Part shown: positions 3 to 12,869 of the stretch, in pieces
Layout: every line of letters begins with the position of its first letter
How positions within the stretch are numbered: position 1 is the stretch's first letter
Source: Verrucomicrobiota bacterium
GTDB lineage: Bacteria; Verrucomicrobiota; Verrucomicrobiia; Chthoniobacterales; UBA10450
Length of the DNA: 64,000 bases
Direction of reading: 5' to 3'
Assembly (NCBI GenBank): GCA_003218375.1
Contig: QHNH01000015.1
Coordinates: 1 to 64,000 of the forward strand
Notes under the pieces: model-generated
The model's database searches: none
Told to the model about the DNA's origin: nothing
The model's input: the letters and a program-made list of their open reading frames with translations, nothing else
Program-made: the position numbers and the translations under genes

Positions 3-1441
3 AGCTATGCCGCCCTCCGAAACGCGTTCGCATCGGACTCAAAGACCGCGGACGACGCGACGACAGTCGGCGCCGGCGGGTCGCTGCAGACCGGAGCGGA
101 TCCCATCGCCGCAACTCACGTTTATGTAGTGGCCAGGGCGCAGGCCAAGGCCCTGGGTCTCCGACCCGACGACATGCAGAATGACGGGACATTCAACTTC
201 GGTGCCGGGCAACCATGGACCTACGATCCGAACAACCGCAACGTCGCCGGGAAGTTCGACTTCATCGGTGTGGCCATGCACGAGTACTCGGAAGTTATGG
301 GCCGCACTTCAGTCATGGGAGATACCTTGGGCACAGGAATGCCAAACTATGTCGCGTTCGACTTATTCCACTATACCGGCGCCGGCACGCGGGGTTTGAA
401 CAATGGTCCGGGCAGATCTTTCTCATTTAATAACGGGACGACGCTCCTCATTGCCTTAATAACAACGCCGCGAACGGGGGCGATCTTCAGGACTGGGCCG
501 GGCCCGCTCCCGATCCCTTCAACGCGTTCGGCCCTCCCGGCGAGCAGGACGACCTGACCCCGGTCGACCTCCAGACAATGGACGTCCTCGGCTACGATCG
601 GGTGGCTATCACACCCGGCCTGGTCGCCAACGTCTCTACGCGTCTTCCAGTCGGGACGGGTGAAAATGTGTTGATCGAAGGTTTTATCGTGCAGGGGCCG
701 GCTGGCTCGACCAAGAAAATCATCGTGCGCGCGATCGGCCCTTCGCTCGCCGCCTTTGGAGTAACCGATGCGCTGCCTAATCCGACCCTGGAAATCCACG
801 ATTCAAATAACGGCAATGCCATCGTGGCGACGAACGATAACTGGCAGACGACGCAGGTCGGCGGCATTATTACAGGCGATCAATCCGCCGAAATCGCCGC
901 GAGCGGGGTCAAACCCACCAACGACCTTGAGTCGGCGATCATCGCGAACCTTGCTCCGGGCAGTTACACCGCGGTCGTGCGCGGCACAGGGACAAACAAC
1001 GTCGGCACCGGACTCGTCGATGCTTACGATCTTAGCCCGGCCTCTTCGGCCAAGCTGGTCAACGTCGCCACCAGAGGTTTGATTCAACCCGGTGATAAAC
1101 TCATGATCGCCGGCTTTATCACCCAGAATGGGGCGGTAAGAGCCGTGGTCCGTGCCATTGGTCCTTCCCTGGCCGCGTTCGGAATCACAAACGCCCTGCC
1201 TGATACCACGCTTCAGCTTAGGGACCAGAACGGCGCCATCGTCGTCGAGAATGACAATTGGAAAGTGCGAACCAATGGCACCAGCCAGCAAGCAGAGATG
1301 GAGGCTACACAGCTCCAACCCACCAACGATCTCGAGGCTGCTTTTGTGATCACCCTTCAGCCCGGGCAATACACTGCCCAAGTGCGGGGCAAACCCGAGT
1401 CAACCGGTATCGGCGTCGTCGAGATTTACTTCCTCCCGTAG
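3..1441 (+). pseudogene. secreted metalloprotease-like protein (NF038122-type) with C-terminal repeat modules; 5' partial, frameshifted
   Basis: The frame is open from the window edge, so the N-terminus is missing. It carries a zinc-protease-like motif (MHEYSEVMGR, near position 285) and a preceding FDFIGVA stretch typical of the NF038122 metalloprotease family as I remember it. Near position 450-458 the frame breaks: the first part continues as nonsense to 557, while the true continuation (DLQDWAGPAPDPF) is read two bases along and joins the frame that runs to 1441. A one-base loss or two-base gain explains this. The second half holds two tandem copies (about 615-1050 and 1050-1441) of a module of roughly 130 residues that starts NVSTR/NVATR, contains RAIGPSLAAFG and NDNW, and ends GLVDAYDL or GVVEIYFLP. 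The same module ends three other proteins in this window. The break may be a real mutation or a sequencing error. Confidence 0.7.
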
Positions 1442-1447
1442 AGGGAC

Positions 1448-1573: not shown

Positions 1574-3157
1574 ATGAAAAACAGTCTCCGGTTCCTCACC
1601 ATCCTTTGGGTCGTCGCTTTCCTGCCGCTCACAGTTCATGCCGCCGCCGGTGATCTCTACGAATCGGATTTCAACACCGGTAAGATCTTTGAATTTAATA
1701 CCACGGGCACCGTGAACAAGCTCACGTTCGCGACAGGATTAACGGGTGTTCGCGGCCTGGCTTTCGATCGCGCCGGCAACCTTTTTGTTGGCCAGGACTC
1801 GACAATCGTCAGAATCACCCCCGCGGGATTTACCAGCGTGTTTGCCTCGGGGCTGCACGGGCCAAACTTTCTGACAGTCGATCGCGCCGGGAATCTTTTC
1901 GCGTCGGATCGCGATGGAAATATCCTCCGCATCACGCCCCAGGGCTTCGAAACTTTTTTCGCGACCGGACTGAACAAGCCCACCGGGCTGGCGTTCGATC
2001 TCGATGGCAATCTCTTCGTGGCGGATTATGCGGACAACGCCATTTTCAAATTCACCCCTGACGGGGCGAAAAGCACGTTTGCCCTGAACATGAAAGGTCC
2101 TGAGGGAGTGGCTTTCGATCGTTCCGGGTTCCTCTATGTCGCGAATGGTATTACCGGAACGGTCGACCGATTCACGCCGCTTGGGTCGAGGACGACCCCA
2201 ATTTCAAATCTCATTTCGCCGGTCGGCATCGTTCTCGACTCCGCGGGTAATCTTTTCGCCGCTGAGGATTGCAACGGCGGCGCCAACGATATTAAGAAAT
2301 TCACCGGCGCTACAGGAACGGCCTCGGTTTTCGCCTCGGGCCTCGGCTGTCCCCTGCAACTTGCCATCGAGCCGCCGAGGGATTCGTTGTTGAACATCTC
2401 CACGCGCGCGCACGTCGAGACGGGACAAAATCGAGAGCTGATCGGAGGCTTCATCATTACGCAGACCCAATCAAAAAAGGTGCTCATCCGTGCAATCGGT
2501 CCTTCGTCGGCGAAATTGGGCGTCGTCAGCCCATTGCCTGATCCCACGTTGGAATTGCACCGGCCGGATGGGAGCACGATCAGCAATGACGATTGGATGG
2601 ACACGCAAAAGGATGAGATTCAAGCCACGGGCCTGGCGCCGAACGACAATCGTGAATCGGCCATTCTCGTCACCCTCGATCCAGGCAATTACACTGCGAT
2701 CGTTCGGGGAAAACCTCCCATCCAGGATGGAGTCGCGTCGGTGGAACTTTACGATCTCGAACTGAATAAAAATTCGACGGTCGCCAACATCAGTTCCCGG
2801 GGATTTGTCGAACCTGGCCAGGACTTCATGATTGCAGGGTTCATCACGGGAGGCGGGAATGGGGCTGGGAAAGTTTTGATTCGCGCGTTAGGGCCGTCGC
2901 TCACTCAATACGGTATCACCCGGGTCCTGCCTGATCCGACGCTGGTCTTAAACAATAAAGACGGTACTATAATGATATCCAATGACGATTGGGCGGATAC
3001 CCAGGCCGCAGAAATTGAAGGCACCGGCCTCGCGCCCCAAAGCTCGTTGGAATCAGCCATCGTCGCCTACCTTCCCAGCGGAGCTTACACGGCCACCGTG
3101 AAGGACCTTAAAGGCAATACCGGCGTGGCCCTCGTCGAGGTCTACAACTTGCGCTAA
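1574..3157 (+). CDS. secreted NHL/SMP-30-like beta-propeller protein with two C-terminal repeat modules
   Basis: The 527-residue product has a clear signal peptide (MKNSLRFLTILWVVAFLPLTVHA). Residues of about 25-270 are a propeller of six or more blades, each with a GLAFDRAGNLFV or GVAFDRSGFLYV repeat, as in NHL or SMP-30/gluconolactonase-like folds. No lactonase active site was identified, so a catalytic role is not claimed. Residues of about 270-395 and 395-527 are two copies of the module that starts NISTR/NISSR, contains RAIGPSS or RALGPSL and NDDW, and ends in VELYDL or VEVYNLR. The protein is probably exported to the surface or outside. The ATG at 1574 directly begins the signal peptide. 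It has the same direction as the preceding gene, which carries the same modules. Confidence 0.85.
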   Translation: MKNSLRFLTILWVVAFLPLTVHAAAGDLYESDFNTGKIFEFNTTGTVNKLTFATGLTGVRGLAFDRAGNLFVGQDSTIVRITPAGFTSVFASGLHGPNFLTVDRAGNLFASDRDGNILRITPQGFETFFATGLNKPTGLAFDLDGNLFVADYADNAIFKFTPDGAKSTFALNMKGPEGVAFDRSGFLYVANGITGTVDRFTPLGSRTTPISNLISPVGIVLDSAGNLFAAEDCNGGANDIKKFTGATGTASVFASGLGCPLQLAIEPPRDSLLNISTRAHVETGQNRELIGGFIITQTQSKKVLIRAIGPSSAKLGVVSPLPDPTLELHRPDGSTISNDDWMDTQKDEIQATGLAPNDNRESAILVTLDPGNYTAIVRGKPPIQDGVASVELYDLELNKNSTVANISSRGFVEPGQDFMIAGFITGGGNGAGKVLIRALGPSLTQYGITRVLPDPTLVLNNKDGTIMISNDDWADTQAAEIEGTGLAPQSSLESAIVAYLPSGAYTATVKDLKGNTGVALVEVYNLR

Positions 3158-3332
3158 TGGAGGGACGCCCGCTGGGCGTCCCTAATAATTAAGAGGACGG
3201 GCAGCGCCCGTCCCTCCAATTGACGTTTACCACGTCAGACATTCATCTCGCCTTGGAGGGACGCCCGCTGGGCGTCCTCGGGTTTCTTGCCGTCCACACG
3301 ATTCACGAGGACGGGCAGCGCCCGTCCCTCCA
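3158..3332. repeat. two family A palindromic repeats separated by a copy of the RAYT 3' end
   Basis: Copies at 3158-3218 and 3254-3332 both have TGGAGGGACGCCCGC arms and CCGTCCCTCCA ends. The roughly 40 bases after each copy (3219-3253 and 3333-3371) are nearly identical. The second of these is the real 3' end of the RAYT pseudogene. The unit of repeat plus transposase tail has therefore been duplicated. Confidence 0.85.
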
Positions 3333-3340
3333 ATTGACGT

Positions 3341-3809
3341 TTACCACGTCAGGACGTTCATCTCGCCTTGGTAAGGCCAATCTTCGGACTTACTAACGAG
3401 ACCGGCCCGCACAGGGTTTGCGACCACGTAATCCCATTTCGCGTCATAACTCTCACCGCGACGCAACTGCGTATCCAGAAATGGCGTTGCCAGATTGGTA
3501 GGTCTCCGCGATGCGGCCACCGGCGTGTCGCCGTTGCTTTCCAAAATCCTATCCAGTGCTGCAAGGTTTCAGGGACCGACACGAGCGGCGCGCAAAACAA
3601 TGGATATGGTCCGGCATGATCACATACCGGCCGACGAGCCATCTCTCGGCGAGCTGCCATGACTCGCGTAGAATTTCGTGCATTTCCGCATTCGCCAGCA
3701 ACGGCTTCCGATCCTTTGTGCAGACGGTGACAAAGACAATGATCGGCGTGTTGAACCGTTCATGCGCCGGCTGGTGAATCGGATGTTTGCGGCCGGGAGG
3801 GTCAATCAT
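3341..3809 (-). pseudogene. REP-associated tyrosine transposase (RAYT, IS200/Y1-like), two frameshifts
   Basis: Read on the minus strand, three overlapping frames join into one RAYT. The first (start 3809) has HERFNTPIIVFVTVCTKDRK and MPDHIHCF with the metal-binding HxH. The second continues FCAPLVSVPETLQHWIGFWK and WQRHFW. The third has DTQLRRGESYDAKWDYVVAN followed by PVRAGLV, with the candidate catalytic Tyr of the Y-xx-NPVRAGL motif. Each junction is explained by loss of one base: one just after HIH (about 3597) and one after HFW (about 3475). The product is therefore inactive unless these are sequencing errors. RAYTs are domesticated single-copy transposases linked to REP palindromes. 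This one is flanked on both sides by family A palindromes (3158-3332 and 3813-3870). Confidence 0.85.
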
Positions 3810-3812
3810 GTA

Positions 3813-3870
3813 TGGAGGGACGCCCGCTGGGCGTCCCTAATTAATGGGACGGGCGGCGCCCGTCCCTCCA
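3813..3870. repeat. palindromic repeat, family A
   Basis: The TGGAGGGACGCCCGCTGGGC arm pairs with a GGGACGGGCGGCGCCCGTCC arm ending CTCCA. It lies just 5' of the RAYT relic (minus strand), completing a repeat-transposase-repeat arrangement. Confidence 0.85.
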
Positions 3871-3877
3871 AAAGACG

Positions 3878-4189
3878 TTACTTCCCCGTGGCGTTGATGC
3901 GCACTGCCTTGGTCGAGTCGGTGCCGAGGGTGACGTTGACATTCATGCCGGGCTTTAGGTCGGCGGCGGTTGCCCTTATCCCATTCACATTGATTTCCGT
4001 GAATTGAGTGATGGCCAGCGTCTTGGCGGTCTTGCCTTCATTTATCGTGATGGACGTCGCCGTTACGCTCGCGATGACCGGACCTTGAATCACAGGTGGC
4101 ACCGGCTTCTTCTTGGCCGCGGCAAAGGCCGGGCTAAGCGTTAGCGTTCCGAGTAATAGGGTAAGGAAAAGGAAGCGGAGTTTTCTCAT
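3878..4189 (-). CDS. small secreted protein at the end of the pilus-like operon
   Basis: The product has 103 residues with a strong signal peptide (MRKLRFLFLTLLLGTLTLSP, then AFA). The mature part is short, beta-rich and basic, with ITINEGKTAKTLAITQFTEI and the hydrophobic turn AADLKPGMNVNVTL. This resembles the small OB-like beta-barrel repeats of DUF5666-type proteins, but the family is not certain. The start codon lies two bases after the stop of the secretin-like gene, so it is probably translated from the same messenger. Function is unknown. Its place as last gene of the pilus-like cluster suggests a periplasmic accessory role, which is inference. Confidence 0.75.
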   Translation of the reverse strand: MRKLRFLFLTLLLGTLTLSPAFAAAKKKPVPPVIQGPVIASVTATSITINEGKTAKTLAITQFTEINVNGIRATAADLKPGMNVNVTLGTDSTKAVRINATGK

Positions 4190-4191
4190 GG

Positions 4192-6903
4192 CTACTTCTT
4201 GTAGAATGGAACCTCAGGAAGAATCGGCGGCTCGATCACGTTTTCGGATTCTTCGACTTCCTCGGTCGCGTTCACCGGTTGTCCGCCAGGATTAATCAAC
4301 CGGGCCGTGACGAAGATGATCAGGTTTCGCTTGATGTGTTGCTCAACGTTCGTGCGGAAGAGGCGGCCGACTATCGGGATGTCGCCGATGATCGGCGTGC
4401 GATCTTCTGTCTTCTGCACATCCTCACGCATCAAGCCGCCGAGGACGACCGTCTGCCCGTCCCACACGCTCACGCTCGTCGTTACCTTCCGGGTGCTGAA
4501 GATCGGTTGATTAATAACATTCGGAGTTATGACATTCTGAGGTGTGGTCCTGACGATGTTCGTGAGTGTATCGAGGAACGATGTGGATGGCGAAAAGATA
4601 GGACTGCCGTAATTGATGAAACCTTCGAATTCCACAACCTGCGGGACCAAATTCAGATCGATAGTTACTCCATCCGGGCCTACGACCGGTTCCACCTCGA
4701 GTGTAACTCCGGTGTTGCGAGTCTCGAAGGCGGTCGGCGTCGTGGGAGTAACGGGTACCGTCGATGTCGAGCCCAAGGGAATTAGGTTGCCGGTCAGGCC
4801 GCTGGTATCGTTCCTAACCGTCCCCACGGTTTGCGGGATCTGCGGCGGCTGAAATTGCGTGGGATAACGAAACTCGCGGACGATTTCAATCACGGCGCGC
4901 TGCCCGCTCTTCGTCGTGACACGAGGAGCGGAAAGTAAGTCGACGCCCTTTTTCTGATTTAGAGCCCTGACCACGACCTGAAACTGAGGATCGGTCAACA
5001 GCCCGCCAAAACCAAAAATGCCTGGCGACAGTAATTGGGTCGTCGTGGTCCCGAGAAGCAACGAATCGATCGCGTTTCCACTAATGGAAAGATTCCCGCT
5101 GCGGTTCCCGGCGGTAACCGGGTTCAGCCCTGTCGTGGACAAGGGCGGGTTGTAGGTTGGATAGTCGACTGGGTTCACGGCGGAGCCCGTCCCCGAAGTG
5201 CCACCGGTGACGGCCACCTCACCGCTCTTGTTAAGGTTGAACGGACCTAGCAGCCAATCGAAGCCCATGGCCTTGAGATTATTCTGGGTGATCTCGATAA
5301 ACTTGGCTTCGATCTCGACCTGTTTGGGACCAGAAACGTTCGCCTGTTCGACAATGGCGTCCACCAGCTCCAGCATGTCCGCCGTATTACGCACGATCAG
5401 GCGGCTGCTTTGCGGGAGAAAGTTCGCGCTCGATCCGGGCACGGAAAAAGAAACGCCCTGGCTCTCCAAGAATTCCTTGGCGCCTTCGCGGTTCACCAGG
5501 AGGCGGCCACCGGTCGATTCCTGGGTGTCTTTCGCCGTCCCCGTGGTCTGCGCCGCGGTTTTGGAATTTGCCGCCGGTTGATTCAACGCGGAGCCGCTCG
5601 CGTTCAGCGAACCAGAAATAAACCCGGGCGGGACGCGATACTGTTTCGTCAGCAGATCGTTGCTCAACTCGCTGATTGGAATGATCGAGACGGCGTAGGG
5701 TTCGACCTTCACTTTCAGGTTCGCCTGGCTCGCGATGTAACGGAGAGCTTCGCCGAGCGGAATTTGATTGAGCGTGATTGTGATTCGCGCATCGGCCGGA
5801 TTGATCGATGGCGCGGAGACAGTGGTCGGAACGGGCGGCGGCGGCGGCGCTATTGCCGTCGGTTCCGGCGAGACGCCGGGCGCAGCGGAAGTGGAAGAGA
5901 CAACTGTGCTCGTAGTCGTCGTCGTTTCCGCGCGGGTGCCGAGCGTGTTCAGGCGCAGAACGATGTCCACGCCTTTGCGGCCGTCCGCGCCCGGATCGTT
6001 TTCCGCGGCTTGTTGCCGGAGAAACTCGATCGCTTCCCGGATGCTCGCGTCGCGAAACTCGATCTTCGGAATGATGATGGTGTTGAGCTTGGTCGTGATC
6101 CGCGCGGTGCCGGTCGCGTCTTTCGCGAACGCGTCGGTGATCGGGCCGACCGTCTCGCCATATTTCTTGACCGGCTCTTCCCATCCTTTCTGGACCTGCC
6201 AGAGCTGGCGCGAACGGGTCTCGTTATACGCTTCCTCGCCGTAATGCGTCTTCGTCAGGTCGAGCCGTTCCTCGCCGCGACGAGCGGCGACATTGTAGGG
6301 ATCGATGGCGAGCACCTGCTCGTATTTCTTGAACGCGAGATCGTAGCGGCCGCTCATGTAATAACCTTCCGCCTCGACCAGCAGCTTCTTCACTTCCTCG
6401 ACCTTCGAGAGAAACTTCGGGCCCATCGTGCGATTGACGGTTCCCGGCGCCTGCAACCGCGCCAGCATTTCGGCCGCGGGTCGGCAATTGGGATCGTAAC
6501 GGTTGCTCAGGATCTCGCGGCAAATCCCCTCGGCTTCCCCGTACTTGCCTTCGGCAACTTTCTGCTCGGCCAGTTTCATCCCGCTCGCGCAGAAACCGCT
6601 CAGCGCTTCGTCGTGCGATTTCTCGCTGATCACCGCGTCCGGCAGAAAGGTCAGGGCCAGGCGAAATTCTTCGTGCGCCACGGTGAAATTCCCTTCCGCC
6701 ATCGCCGCCTTGGCGCGGCCGAGCGCCTCCTGTCCGCGCGGAAGCGCCGCCTGCCGCCGCGCCGCTTCGCGCTCCGCGACCGCATTCGTGTTCTGGGCGA
6801 GCGCGACGGTGCAGATTATCGGTGCCAGCGCCGCCGCCAAAAGTCGTGACCAGTTGGGCCCGATCGAGGATTTCAATGAAAACCAATGTGATGAATTTTT
6901 CAT
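4192..6903 (-). CDS. Amuc_1098-like type IV pilus secretin (outer membrane channel)
   Basis: The product has 903 residues with an N-terminal hydrophobic signal region (LLAAALAPIICTVALAQ). Residues of about 45-240 are helical and TPR-like (YYMSGRYDLAFKKYEQVLAI). A Ser/Thr/Pro-rich linker follows. Then comes a secretin N-domain (QIPLGEALRYIASQANLKVK), a second N-domain with LIVRNTADMLELVDAIVEQ and VEIEAKFIEI, and the C-terminal secretin barrel (VWDGQTVVLGGLMREDVQ, GDIPIVGRLFR, NLIIFVTARLI). Secretins form the outer membrane ring through which pilus or secreted substrates pass. The TPR-like N-terminus and the order of neighbours match the Amuc_1098 family. It is the downstream large gene of the minus-strand cluster 11790 to 3878. 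Confidence 0.9.
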   Translation of the reverse strand: MKNSSHWFSLKSSIGPNWSRLLAAALAPIICTVALAQNTNAVAEREAARRQAALPRGQEALGRAKAAMAEGNFTVAHEEFRLALTFLPDAVISEKSHDEALSGFCASGMKLAEQKVAEGKYGEAEGICREILSNRYDPNCRPAAEMLARLQAPGTVNRTMGPKFLSKVEEVKKLLVEAEGYYMSGRYDLAFKKYEQVLAIDPYNVAARRGEERLDLTKTHYGEEAYNETRSRQLWQVQKGWEEPVKKYGETVGPITDAFAKDATGTARITTKLNTIIIPKIEFRDASIREAIEFLRQQAAENDPGADGRKGVDIVLRLNTLGTRAETTTTTSTVVSSTSAAPGVSPEPTAIAPPPPPVPTTVSAPSINPADARITITLNQIPLGEALRYIASQANLKVKVEPYAVSIIPISELSNDLLTKQYRVPPGFISGSLNASGSALNQPAANSKTAAQTTGTAKDTQESTGGRLLVNREGAKEFLESQGVSFSVPGSSANFLPQSSRLIVRNTADMLELVDAIVEQANVSGPKQVEIEAKFIEITQNNLKAMGFDWLLGPFNLNKSGEVAVTGGTSGTGSAVNPVDYPTYNPPLSTTGLNPVTAGNRSGNLSISGNAIDSLLLGTTTTQLLSPGIFGFGGLLTDPQFQVVVRALNQKKGVDLLSAPRVTTKSGQRAVIEIVREFRYPTQFQPPQIPQTVGTVRNDTSGLTGNLIPLGSTSTVPVTPTTPTAFETRNTGVTLEVEPVVGPDGVTIDLNLVPQVVEFEGFINYGSPIFSPSTSFLDTLTNIVRTTPQNVITPNVINQPIFSTRKVTTSVSVWDGQTVVLGGLMREDVQKTEDRTPIIGDIPIVGRLFRTNVEQHIKRNLIIFVTARLINPGGQPVNATEEVEESENVIEPPILPEVPFYKK

Positions 6904-6929: not shown

Positions 6930-7008
6930 GGAGGGATGTGCTTCCGCACGTCCCATTCTGTTCGCACCCACCTTCGAAAAGTCGGACGTGCGGAAGCACG
7001 TCCCTCCA
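6930..7008. repeat. palindromic repeat, family A variant
   Basis: The arms GGAGGGATGTGCTTCCGCAC and GTGCGGAAGCACGTCCCTCC are inverted. The outer GGAGGGA is that of family A, but the inner palindrome is now GTGCTTCCGCAC, changed on both sides of the stem. It lies between two genes of the pilus-like operon. Confidence 0.8.
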
Positions 7009-8105: not shown

Positions 8106-9002
8106 TCACAACGTAAACCTCACGATCTCAATCTTCACGGTTGTCTCGATCTTCTCGTTGCCGACGATAAAATTCAGCGCGGCGGCGGGCGTCGCTTTCG
8201 CGGCCGGCGAAGACGACGGAACGCTCGGGGCCGTGGTTTCGCCACCGGTCTCGCGGGGCGGGCCTTTATCTTTTTCATTCCGGACATGGAGGACGCGAAT
8301 GATGCAGAACTCCTGATTGGCCCCGGCAATCTGATTGATAATTTTTCGCGCCGAGGATGGCGTGGAAACGAATGTGAGTTCGACCACGTTTCGACTAAAC
8401 ATGCTTATCGGCACGGTCGGCATGGGAGGCTTCGCGGTTAGCGGAGGCGCTGTCGTTCCTCGCTCCTCTCGCAAGGGAGTGCGATGAAAAGCGGTCAGCG
8501 CGTCCACGCGCGCGTCGAGCACTCCGTTCACGAGCCATTCAATCTGGAGCAGCTCCTGCCCGAGCAACGTGGCCGCGAGCTCCGAGGCCGGCAGCGCGGC
8601 CGAATATTCGTCAAAACCAAGATAGAATTTATCCGGCAGCTTTACCTTATTCGCGCGCGCCTTATCCGCGATGCCATTCATCGCGACACGAAAGCGCGAT
8701 TGGAATTCGTTCGGCTGTATTTTTTCCGCGGGCGCGCCGCGGTTAGCCAGTTCGGCTTCCAATTTCGTGAGGGCGCTCGCGTAATCCTCGGCGTGCGCTT
8801 TCATCTTGCGGAGGTTATCCGCACTCGGGTAGGGGTTGAGGCGTTCGAGTCGATTTAGTTCCGAGGCTGTATTTCCAAAACGCGCGGCCGCGTCATCCCA
8901 GTCGCCCTTCGTACTAAAGAAAAACCAACCGGCGCCGATCAGGCACACGCCGAATACGATCAGGAATCGGCCGAGGAATGGATTTTCGCGAAACCAGTTC
9001 AT
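8106..9002 (-). CDS. Amuc_1100-like pilus protein
   Basis: The product has 298 residues. I chose the ATG at 9002, which opens MNWFRENPFLGRF followed by one membrane segment (FLIVFGVCLIGAGWFFF). A longer TTG start at 9038 would add twelve residues before it. The periplasmic part begins with a coiled-coil-like region (LNRLERLNPYPSADNLRKMK) and ends with a beta-rich domain (FSRNVVELTFVSTPSSARKI, EFCIIRVLHVRNE). This is the layout of PilN/PilO-like proteins and of Amuc_1100. It sits between the PilM-like and Amuc_1099-like genes, as in Akkermansia, where the homologue is a known outer-surface immunomodulatory protein. A Ser/Pro/Ala-rich insertion (about residues 240-270) looks flexible. Confidence 0.82.
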   Translation of the reverse strand: MNWFRENPFLGRFLIVFGVCLIGAGWFFFSTKGDWDDAAARFGNTASELNRLERLNPYPSADNLRKMKAHAEDYASALTKLEAELANRGAPAEKIQPNEFQSRFRVAMNGIADKARANKVKLPDKFYLGFDEYSAALPASELAATLLGQELLQIEWLVNGVLDARVDALTAFHRTPLREERGTTAPPLTAKPPMPTVPISMFSRNVVELTFVSTPSSARKIINQIAGANQEFCIIRVLHVRNEKDKGPPRETGGETTAPSVPSSSPAAKATPAAALNFIVGNEKIETTVKIEIVRFTL

Positions 9003-9046
9003 ACGAAACTTGGAGGCACGGGCTCTATCCCGTCCCAAGCATAGCT

Positions 9047-9137
9047 CTTCTGTAGCCGCGTCCCTGTGGGACGCGTGTCGGTTAGCGTGAAAGCAATGTT
9101 TTCCCCCGCGCGTCCCACAGGGACGCGGCTACAGAAG
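9047..9137. repeat. palindromic repeat, family B
   Basis: The arms CTTCTGTAGCCGCGTCCCTG and its partner ending GACGCGGCTACAGAAG are inverted. It is close to identical in its right half to the copy at 7996-8086. It lies in the gap before the Amuc_1100-like gene. Confidence 0.85.
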
Positions 9138-9153
9138 AATTTGCATGCGGGGC

Positions 9154-10902
9154 TCATGGGATCGGCATCGGCTTTTTCAGGTCGAGGCGCAGCTCGTAGG
9201 GAAACGCCCACTCGGTGTTGGTGGGCGTAGTCGGCTTGATGTATTTCGCCTGGTTATTCGGATCGAGCGCGAACCAGGGCGAGCTGACGAGGTTCCGGAA
9301 ATAATCGACCACCACTTCCTGCTGCTTCGGGTTGAAAAGATACAGGCCGCGGACGAGCACGCCGTCGATCACTGGGACGGCGGGCGTCGCACCGGGACGC
9401 GGAGGCGGCGCCGTCGGCACGGGCGTCGCGGCTGCGAGAGAGCGCGCGTCGGGGGCGCCGAGAGGTTTGCCGCCGGAAGTCGGGACCAGTTCCGTGATCC
9501 AGATGTCTTCCTTCGGCAATCGCTCATTGAGATCTTCGAGAACGAGCGGCCAGAAACTGCGCTCGTTGATCGCCGCGACGAGTGGTGCCGATCGATTATC
9601 CAGGGCCGTCGTCTCTTTCCGGACCTGCGTCATTTGCGTTTCGAGCCGATGCATCCCATCAACTTTTTCCTGGAGATGCGCCGTGGCCCGGTCTTCCACC
9701 TGCGCCGCGCGCCAAAAATAAACACCCCAGGCCAGGAACCCGAGAACCACGCACGCCGCCGCGAGCATGAAAGCCGGCCGCCGCCGTTCCATTTCCTGCC
9801 GGCGAACGACGCTTTGCGGCCGCAGATTCAACTCCATCGGGCAGGTCATCGCGCTGCGGAGCGCGAGGCCCGTGAGCTCGCCGAGGAGATGCGCGGAGTG
9901 CGCGACTTCCGCCGCGTCCACCGCTTCCGAAACAGCGACGTTGCGCAGCGGATTGAAGAACTCGACCGGCACCTGGAGTTTCTCCTGAAAAAACTCGCGC
10001 ATGTACGGCGTGCTCGTACTGCCGCCGCATAAATAAAGCCGGTCGGGCGCGTTCCCCTGTTGTTGCGCGCGATAATGGCTGATCGAGCGCATCATCTCGG
10101 CGTGGAGCCGCGTCATGGTGCCGCGGACGATTTTTGAAACCCGCGCCACGTCCGGGTCGGGCGGTTCCGCGTAGGCGCCGCCGAGGCTCACGAATCCGTC
10201 CCGTTTTTTCCGGAACTCCGCGGCGCCGATCGGTTCGTTGAATTCCTTCGCGATCGCGGATGAAACCGAGCCGCCGCCGATGGCCACGCTCCGGGAAAAG
10301 ATTTTGCCGGGCTCGATGAAAAGGAGATTGGTCGTGCGCGCGCCGATATCGACGAGGAGCGAACAGCCGGCGAGATCGCTGTAGTTGTAACGAAACGCAT
10401 TGTAGAGCGCCATCGTCGCCACGCACACGATCGACGTGCGCAGGCCCGCGCCTTCGACCGCGGCGTTCACGCCCTCGAGCAAATCTTCCTTGATCGCGAC
10501 GAGCACGACCTGGATTTGCTCGTCCGCGCCGTCGCCGACGAGCTGGTAATCCCAGACCACTTCATCGATCGGGAACGGCACGTTCTGCTGCGCCTCGAAC
10601 GCGATGATGCGCTCGATCTTTTCTTCCTCCACCGCCGGCAATTTCACGAACCGCGCGAAGACCGATTGCGCGGCGATCGCGTAATTGACCGGGCCGCCTT
10701 TTATTCCCAGCTCGCCCAGCATCTCGCGCAACGCCGCGCCGATTTGCGCGTTGCGAGTGCTTTCGTTCGACGCGTCCGCCAGGATTTCGCGTAACCGGTA
10801 ACCGTTCAGGACCAGCCCGCCGTTGGGTTGGGTATGGAATTCAGCGAGCCCAACGGTTTGCGAACCGAGGTTCAGGCTGAGAATGCGGGTCGCGGCGGCC
10901 AT
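9154..10902 (-). CDS. Amuc_1101-like PilM protein with C-terminal PilN-like domain
   Basis: The product has 582 residues from the ATG at 10902 (MAAATRILSLNLGSQTVGLA); a start at 10932 would add ten residues. The first 350 or so residues are an actin-like ATPase of the PilM type: phosphate-1 loop LSLNLGSQTVGLAEF, SVFARFVKLPAVEEEKIERI, AQQNVPFPIDEVVWDYQ, LLVDIGARTTNLLF and YLCGGSTSTPYM. A membrane segment follows (FMLAAACVVLGFLAWGVYFW), then a coiled coil and a periplasmic domain with ERLPKEDIWITELVP, like PilN. PilM and PilN are usually separate; here they are one chain, as in the Amuc_1101 family. It would link the cytoplasmic scaffold to the periplasmic alignment proteins. Confidence 0.88.
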   Translation of the reverse strand: MAAATRILSLNLGSQTVGLAEFHTQPNGGLVLNGYRLREILADASNESTRNAQIGAALREMLGELGIKGGPVNYAIAAQSVFARFVKLPAVEEEKIERIIAFEAQQNVPFPIDEVVWDYQLVGDGADEQIQVVLVAIKEDLLEGVNAAVEGAGLRTSIVCVATMALYNAFRYNYSDLAGCSLLVDIGARTTNLLFIEPGKIFSRSVAIGGGSVSSAIAKEFNEPIGAAEFRKKRDGFVSLGGAYAEPPDPDVARVSKIVRGTMTRLHAEMMRSISHYRAQQQGNAPDRLYLCGGSTSTPYMREFFQEKLQVPVEFFNPLRNVAVSEAVDAAEVAHSAHLLGELTGLALRSAMTCPMELNLRPQSVVRRQEMERRRPAFMLAAACVVLGFLAWGVYFWRAAQVEDRATAHLQEKVDGMHRLETQMTQVRKETTALDNRSAPLVAAINERSFWPLVLEDLNERLPKEDIWITELVPTSGGKPLGAPDARSLAAATPVPTAPPPRPGATPAVPVIDGVLVRGLYLFNPKQQEVVVDYFRNLVSSPWFALDPNNQAKYIKPTTPTNTEWAFPYELRLDLKKPMPIP

Positions 10903-12809: not shown

Positions 12810-12869
12810 TGGAGGGACGGGCGCCGTCCGTCCCGATAACTATTGGACGACGCAGCGGTCGTCCCTCCA
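12810..12869. repeat. palindromic repeat, family A
   Basis: The arms TGGAGGGACGGGCGCCGTCC and GGACGACGCAGCGGTCGTCC (then CTCCA) are inverted. The inner palindromes differ between arms. Confidence 0.8.

Follow-up and report, generated by a model that had tools for sequence, protein, structure and literature searches.

Did a broken transposase gene spread the short inverted repeats that surround it, and are those repeats its fossils? We examined this question in a 64,000-nt stretch of DNA (the window) that forms part of contig C40 of genome G000, a 52-contig draft of 3.96 Mb (97.8% complete) from a host that we take to be a soil bacterium of the Verrucomicrobiota. In our assessment, the locus is probably a REPtron, that is, a REP-associated tyrosine transposase (RAYT) with its cognate REPINs, from a clade with a GGAG head, in which the RAYT spread the REPINs and then broke.

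A broken RAYT gene among complete REPINs

The RAYT gene lies on the reverse strand at 3341-3809, with its ATG at 3809 and its stop at 3341. A search of the read-through protein against its own genome resolved three successive frames (3585-3809, 3466-3603 and 3344-3484), and the overlapping frame pieces place two breaks near 3585-3603 and 3466-3484. Each break is a net loss of one base, in agreement with the preliminary description of a RAYT disabled by two single-base losses. The NCBIfam model NF047646 (REP_Tyr_transpos) matched the first and last frame pieces (E = 8.2e-08 and 1.1e-10), with the scores of both pieces below the full-length cut-off of the model, and Pfam Y1_Tnp gave a sub-threshold score (17.3 against a cut-off of 23 bits). 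We observed that the HxH and Tyr motifs noted previously are both legible: the HUH motif (HIH), the catalytic Tyr region (KWDYVVANPVRAG) and the WQ...D..xxR motif of RAYTs can be read over the three frames, and aligned residue 100 reads as X, since the second break falls there. With two breaks, 3341-3809 has no intact open frame, and if the assembly is correct it would be a pseudogene of the RAYT family. It gave the sole Y1 match in the window part of C40, so its earlier description as the only transposase-like gene here holds for the Y1 family, which is what the scan covered.

Three REPINs, defined by arm pattern and pairing, surround the gene. One adjoins its start (3813-3870; TGGAGGG-armA-spacer-armB-CCCTCCA). 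Two lie past its stop, the first at 3254-3332 with a 31-nt spacer and the second at 3158-3218, immediately after the stop codon of the gene at 1574-3157. Inverted REPs are thus present on both RAYT flanks (3813-3870 and 3254-3332). A 23-mer arm has four exact copies in the window, compared to none in 100 shuffles, and each copy is half of a two-arm inverted unit. The three palindromes first reported here (family A) do correspond to three repeat sites, but each site is a complete REPIN, giving six hairpins in total. Two more family A REPINs were found at 1448-1505, with the same 10-nt spacer as 3813-3870, and at 12810-12869, where one private short-loop arm is joined to one arm with the longer loop of relatives. 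The sister-arm pattern also located a single reverse-strand REP arm (6984-7007) of a second GGAG population, whose intact RAYT lies outside the window at C40:88080-88529.

A second copy of the RAYT tail is present between the two REPINs past the stop, as originally noticed. These 35 bases (3219-3253, reverse strand) differ from 3333-3368 by one gap and one substitution, and in the alignment of 3219-3257 with 3333-3372 a single gap and a single substitution precede the last base. Because the spacers of the neighbouring REPINs differ (13 nt in 3158-3218 versus 31 nt in 3254-3332), the tail-copy block is no plain recent tandem duplication and was built by more than one simple duplication.

The position of arms relative to genes was checked within the window, where hairpins follow stop codons (3157 and 3878). 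REPINs begin right at the stop codon (TAATGG...) at 3157-3160 in the window and, in the genome G001, at L110 (1498), pointing to insertion close to the ends of genes or to a role as terminators. Separately, the C-terminal part of the gene at 578-1441 (window 1000-1442) matches many places per genome in several same-genus genomes and, judged from these matches, would represent a multicopy protein domain family.

Family A repeats in the host genome and its relatives

Using the pattern GGAGGGACG-NN-CGCNG-NN-CGTCC with at most one mismatch, we found 46 arms in G000 and none for the reversed control pattern. The arms occupy 31 places on 13 contigs. All 46 listed arms carry a GGAG head in place of GT[A/G]G. 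Under the strict pattern, 28 of the 46 are paired as two inverted REPs in a dispersed unit, and some of the unpaired arms are partnered by an arm with the longer loop. The exact pattern is private to G000, with 37 arms there and 0 in the other 146 of the 147 genomes searched when no mismatch was allowed; nine of the 46 arms have one mismatch. The commonest exact arm has nine copies (four of them within the window) plus one with a single mismatch. With this arm exact in 9 of 10 copies, activity appears to be recent, and a search for signs of old fossils in the family A arms showed no excess divergence. The idea that the repeats are old fossils is therefore unsupported. Comparing exact with one-mismatch arms between family A (37 and 9) and the sister population (116, part of them listed) would be unfair, as the free positions differ.

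We observed broader units (TGGAGGGACG-N22-50-CGTCCCTCCA) in 26 of the 147 genomes, i.e., in 25 besides G000. A close RAYT match was present in 6 of the 26 (odds ratio 4.2, P = 0.019, 147 genomes). Within the family, the co-occurrence (6 of 26; P = 0.064) is weak, and the drafts are incomplete. No RAYT match at about E = 1e-49 or better was found in 20 of the 25 other genomes with broader TGGAGGG REPINs, so the broader repeats outlive, or sit detached from, a recognisable cognate. Family A without a RAYT had been named in advance as evidence against the link; the exact pattern is confined to G000, and it is the broader family that extends to genomes lacking a close match.

The REP stems covary. 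In a sample of 152 arms (76 printed units of 83 counted), 109 fit GGACG-N1N2-6 nt-n2n1-CGTC. The first variable stem pair, N1, is Watson-Crick in 103 of the 109 (shuffled mean 38.5, maximum 55), and N2 pairs in 104 (shuffled mean 52.4, maximum 68). N2 is C in one arm and G in the other in 68 of 76 units. The 43 non-fitting arms were set aside; 23 of these come from G000 and are mostly of the short-loop form. While the 6-nt loops of relatives are mostly CKCYGT, most G000 arms have a loop shorter by a base or two, and the commonest G000 arm types have an 8-bp stem and a 3-nt loop compared to a 7-bp stem and a 6-nt loop in relatives. The predicted DNA folding energies are −8.6 to −9.9 kcal/mol for short-loop arms, −6.7 and −7.6 kcal/mol for the arms of relatives, and −6.6 kcal/mol for one weaker short-loop variant. 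The head is accordingly followed by a GC-rich palindrome that folds and is kept by paired changes. Because paired stem changes and heterodimers are already known for REPs from the consulted parts of two papers (PMC2817692, PMC3733652), we do not claim the variation at the first stem pair as new.

G000 contains seven further RAYT-size genes, none with an internal stop. Their flanks carry GGAG with other stems (L047, L048, L049), GTAG (L050, L052) or GTGG (L055), and a flanking repeat was sought but not found at L051. Family A arms were absent from all seven (0/7), leaving the broken RAYT as the sole candidate cognate. Intact RAYTs accompanied by different repeats only had been expected to speak against the proposal. 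They are what we found, yet RAYT-specific cognates predict the same in the sections of Nunvar 2010 and Quentin 2018 consulted, and the result fits a cognate link. L047, the nearest other RAYT (50% identity; intact; same contig, C40:88080-88529), has arms that match family A in head (GGAG) and foot (GGACG) and have another stem and loop (GTGCTTCNGCAC). With 116 copies, this arm type is a second GGAG repeat population in G000. The genome also holds a matched pair of GGAG populations, one of 116 arms whose RAYT is intact and one of 46 arms whose RAYT is broken, so that the decay of REPINs once a RAYT is lost could be traced within one host.

Most of the named RAYT relatives belong to the Verrucomicrobiota (Chthoniobacterales, Opitutales and others), which, together with genome kinship, is our basis for placing the host in this phylum. 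The right-hand genes of the locus (3878-6900) align at 73-75% DNA identity in G005, G007 and G001. At the orthologous place, RAYT and REPIN are both missing from the same-genus genomes G005 and G007, and G001 holds a single sister-type REPIN. This REPIN lies 1 base from the stop codon, compared to 8 in the window, and may be an independent insertion. The comparison of orthologous sites proposed earlier was informative to this extent, and no clean empty site is readable because the flanks outside genes do not align. Elsewhere in G005, we found a truncated, shifted RAYT remnant of 71% identity (L087, C25:13852-14046), in which the N-terminal part is absent or other REP types have taken its place; this genome keeps 18 TGGAGGG REPINs. 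By its sequence, the remnant would be a second, separate decay of the family A RAYT, which points to RAYT loss as a trend in the genus. In G010 (L088, C24, ~8684-9184), a TGGAGGG REPIN lies in frame within a RAYT, between the HUH and Tyr parts, after which the RAYT terminates prematurely; for subclass 2.4, REPs inserted in frame into RAYT genes are already known (PMC6006769, parts consulted).

The GGAG head and residue 101

We considered all hairpins with 7 bp or more in the 450 bases around a RAYT and counted every 4-mer located 0-2 nt ahead of one. The first set comprised 116 RAYT loci, 36 from searches and 80 of roughly 150 relatives listed. GTAG was present in 62 loci and GGAG in 28, making GGAG the second commonest independent head word; the remaining frequent 4-mers were mostly shifted or overlapping forms of these two. 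The resulting labels were GTAG (57), GGAG (25), GTGG (4), mixed (1) and none (29). The window RAYT was added by us as GGAG. On the resulting 117-row tree, GTAG versus GGAG required two changes, and the branch with all GGAG rows (support 82) also has 24 unlabelled rows, two GTAG and one GTGG.

Residue 101 was read from the alignment to E. coli TnpA_REP (4er8). It is His in 57/57 GTAG and 4/4 GTGG rows, and Arg or Thr in 24/26 GGAG rows; the window RAYT has Thr. Exceptions under these looser labels are L049 and L193, GGAG loci with His101. Two GTAG rows inside the GGAG-rich branch, L182 and L211, have His101 and the same foot (GTAG-GGACGCGC... and GTAG-GGATGAGC...), and provide near-isogenic natural pairs for a specificity test. 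In a second set from named genomes (80 loci kept of 397, several records representing the same genomes as the first set), GGAG was present in 58 loci (labels: GGAG 55, none 22, GTAG 1, GTGG 1, mixed 1) and residue 101 was His in 0/80. The lone apparent exception in this set, L261 from an uncultured bacterium MAG, has the Thr101 of the GGAG clade and GTAG hairpins on one side. The RAYT of the cultured laboratory strain Chthoniobacter flavus Ellin428 (L252) is intact and bordered on each side by GGAG arms, and 17 arms of its type occur across that genome.

We then applied strict labels, requiring one head on both flanks, to 184 distinct RAYT proteins plus the window RAYT, whose label we set. His101 was present in 40/40 GT[A/G]G RAYTs and Thr or Arg in 53/53 GGAG RAYTs; 87 rows were unlabelled, and five had both heads, all with Thr or Arg. 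On the tree, the head changed twice and residue 101 four times, with joint change on only two independent paths (P = 0.5, sign test). Only two head changes are needed, so the switch is one between clades, with few independent events behind it, and the association between head and residue 101 is strong in rows and weak in independent events. Residue 100 is Asp in nearly all clade members (Glu in E. coli), as in subclasses 2.5 and 2.7. A text passage of PMC6006769, as distinct from the structure itself, lists His101 among the head-contacting residues, and the same paper, in the part consulted, reports that subclasses with typical REPs sometimes have Arg instead of His101. Residue 101 may read the second head base. 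On balance, we lean towards a RAYT clade, widespread in Verrucomicrobiota and relatives, having switched its head from GT[A/G]G to GGAG with loss of His101, which would make head recognition evolvable. The GGAG head is one base off GTAG and so offers a natural test of how a RAYT reads DNA; since the clade combines a one-base head change with a change at a head-contacting position, head specificity is testable by a handful of swaps. One GGAG-headed RAYT of the clade (L296) was observed in a metagenome-assembled Methanoregulaceae archaeon genome, through transfer or binning error.

The following comparisons draw on portions of the cited papers. Cognate RAYT-REP pairs, REPINs and REPs inside RAYT genes are already published (PMC2817692, PMC3116915, PMC3686654, PMC3733652, PMC6006769), as is a model of REP decay following RAYT inactivation (Nunvar 2013). 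The head tetranucleotide guides recognition or cleavage when RAYTs bind single-stranded REP hairpins and cut close to them (PMC8266576, PMC6006769), and the mechanism of REP dissemination is called poorly understood (PMC8266576). REPs are defined by GT[A/G]G in these accounts; Quentin 2018 (PMC6006769) searched GTAG and GTGG only, and GTAG repeats are listed for Opitutus terrae (Verrucomicrobiota). None of the main texts of PMC3733652, PMC2817692 and PMC6006769 contains the word GGAG, figures and supplements being outside this scope. A literature search combining REP-associated tyrosine transposase with GGAG found nothing; supplements and subscription papers lay outside its scope, so absence from print is unproven. 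A broken RAYT with REPINs is itself familiar, and it is the GGAG head and its enzyme clade that go beyond the described REP/RAYT systems.

Among these systems, TnpA_Sm/REP_Sm of Stenotrophomonas maltophilia (group 3 = subclass 2.5; PMC8266576) likewise combines a RAYT with inverted REPs. Its hairpin has 8 perfect bp and a 3-nt loop (GCT), like the family A arms of G000; the loop G, essential in REP_Sm, is also found in two common family A arm types, and Asp100 is common to TnpA_Sm and the GGAG clade. The heads differ (GTAG in REP_Sm, GGAG in family A), and residue 101 is Thr in the window RAYT and Arg or Thr in the clade. E. coli TnpA_REP, with its y/z REPs, is of the same HUH-Y1 fold family (phmmer E = 4.9e-10) and shares heterodimeric inverted REP pairs with family A. 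Unlike family A and the window RAYT, it has a GTAG head that tolerates no substitution (PMC8266576), REPs with a long bulged stem, and His101. Pseudomonas REPINs (Bertels and Rainey 2011, PMC3116915) are also two inverted REPs dispersed with a RAYT as presumed mover, but in another host group and, per other papers, with a GT[A/G]G head. TIRYTs (Di Nocera 2013, PMC3733652) are RAYT-like genes whose flanking repeats lack GTAG and some of whose TIRs form repeat families; they differ in their named motif (GGGGWSAS) and in that most TIRs are long, although the figures of that paper may hold GGAG cases. Flanking structures without GT[A/G]G also occur in Y1 class 3 and subclass 2.6 (Quentin 2018, PMC6006769). 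These structures are weaker, with a CnGA foot in class 3, and subclass 2.6 is without the Trp94/Gln95/Arg104 region that the GGAG clade keeps.

Probable origin of the repeats and loss of the RAYT

In the REPtron reading, and by analogy with RAYTs already studied, the enzyme would have bound single-stranded hairpins with a GGAG head, a GC-rich stem and a short loop, and would have cut and rejoined DNA beside them, spreading TGGAGGG...CCCTCCA REPINs to about 31 places. The hairpin in the host lineage would have passed from a 7-bp stem and 6-nt loop to mostly a perfect 8-bp stem and 3-nt loop. Two one-base losses would then have broken the RAYT, leaving REPINs without visible decay so far. The preliminary description held that this RAYT mobilised the TGGAGGG family. 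Its cognate link to the repeats is borne out by the pattern in 1/147 genomes, by 0/7 at the other RAYTs and by the match of subclade and head on the tree; we infer the movement itself and the order of events.

Because the arms are still nearly identical, the RAYT break is either recent or, less likely, an assembly error. If both frame breaks were errors, the RAYT would be intact and active, and the arms (9/10 exact), the 52-contig draft and the three frame pieces, which make a full-length RAYT once the breaks are set aside, would all be accounted for. We regard this as unlikely: 88% of the window is covered by open frames of 100 aa or more, including unbroken frames of 903 and 1068 aa, the seven other RAYTs are free of internal stops, and with errors that rare, two breaks within a single 470-base gene would be unlikely. 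Nor do the bases around the breaks lie in long single-letter runs, and the G005 remnant argues for genuine loss. The preliminary reading is largely right, with the RAYT death recent and unproven against assembly error. Programmed frameshifting across the three frames is scarcely credible; both breaks shift the same way, but two shifts would be required in one short gene, almost every relative listed is a single open frame, and we saw no slippery site by eye.

The repeats might instead have been moved by another enzyme, such as the intact GGAG RAYT at C40:88080, with the broken RAYT a bystander. The shared GGAG head and GGACG foot and the 116 arms of its own type are compatible with this, as is the possibility of several REP variants per RAYT (E. 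coli y, z1 and z2; PMC8266576, part consulted), but the flanks and population of that RAYT keep a different stem and loop, six family A arms directly flank the broken gene, and both RAYT subclades cohere on the tree with different hairpin types. We consider this improbable. We disfavour, as very improbable, a decayed passenger RAYT that fell into older repeats spread as terminators or regulatory hairpins. Such an origin would suit the hairpins after stop codons and the broader-family REPINs of the 20 genomes mentioned above, but inverted clade-specific heads at 52/184 (GGAG) and 40/184 (GT[A/G]G) distinct RAYTs under strict labels are unexpected from chance insertion.

Two Pfam Y1 matches in G000 were not returned by the RAYT query (C51:67528 and C28:88747, the second piece of the latter having a stop). 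Y1 domain matches were also observed inside very long open frames of 1496, 1347 and 910 aa (G000:C25:57360, C52:6469 and C11:24128, respectively).
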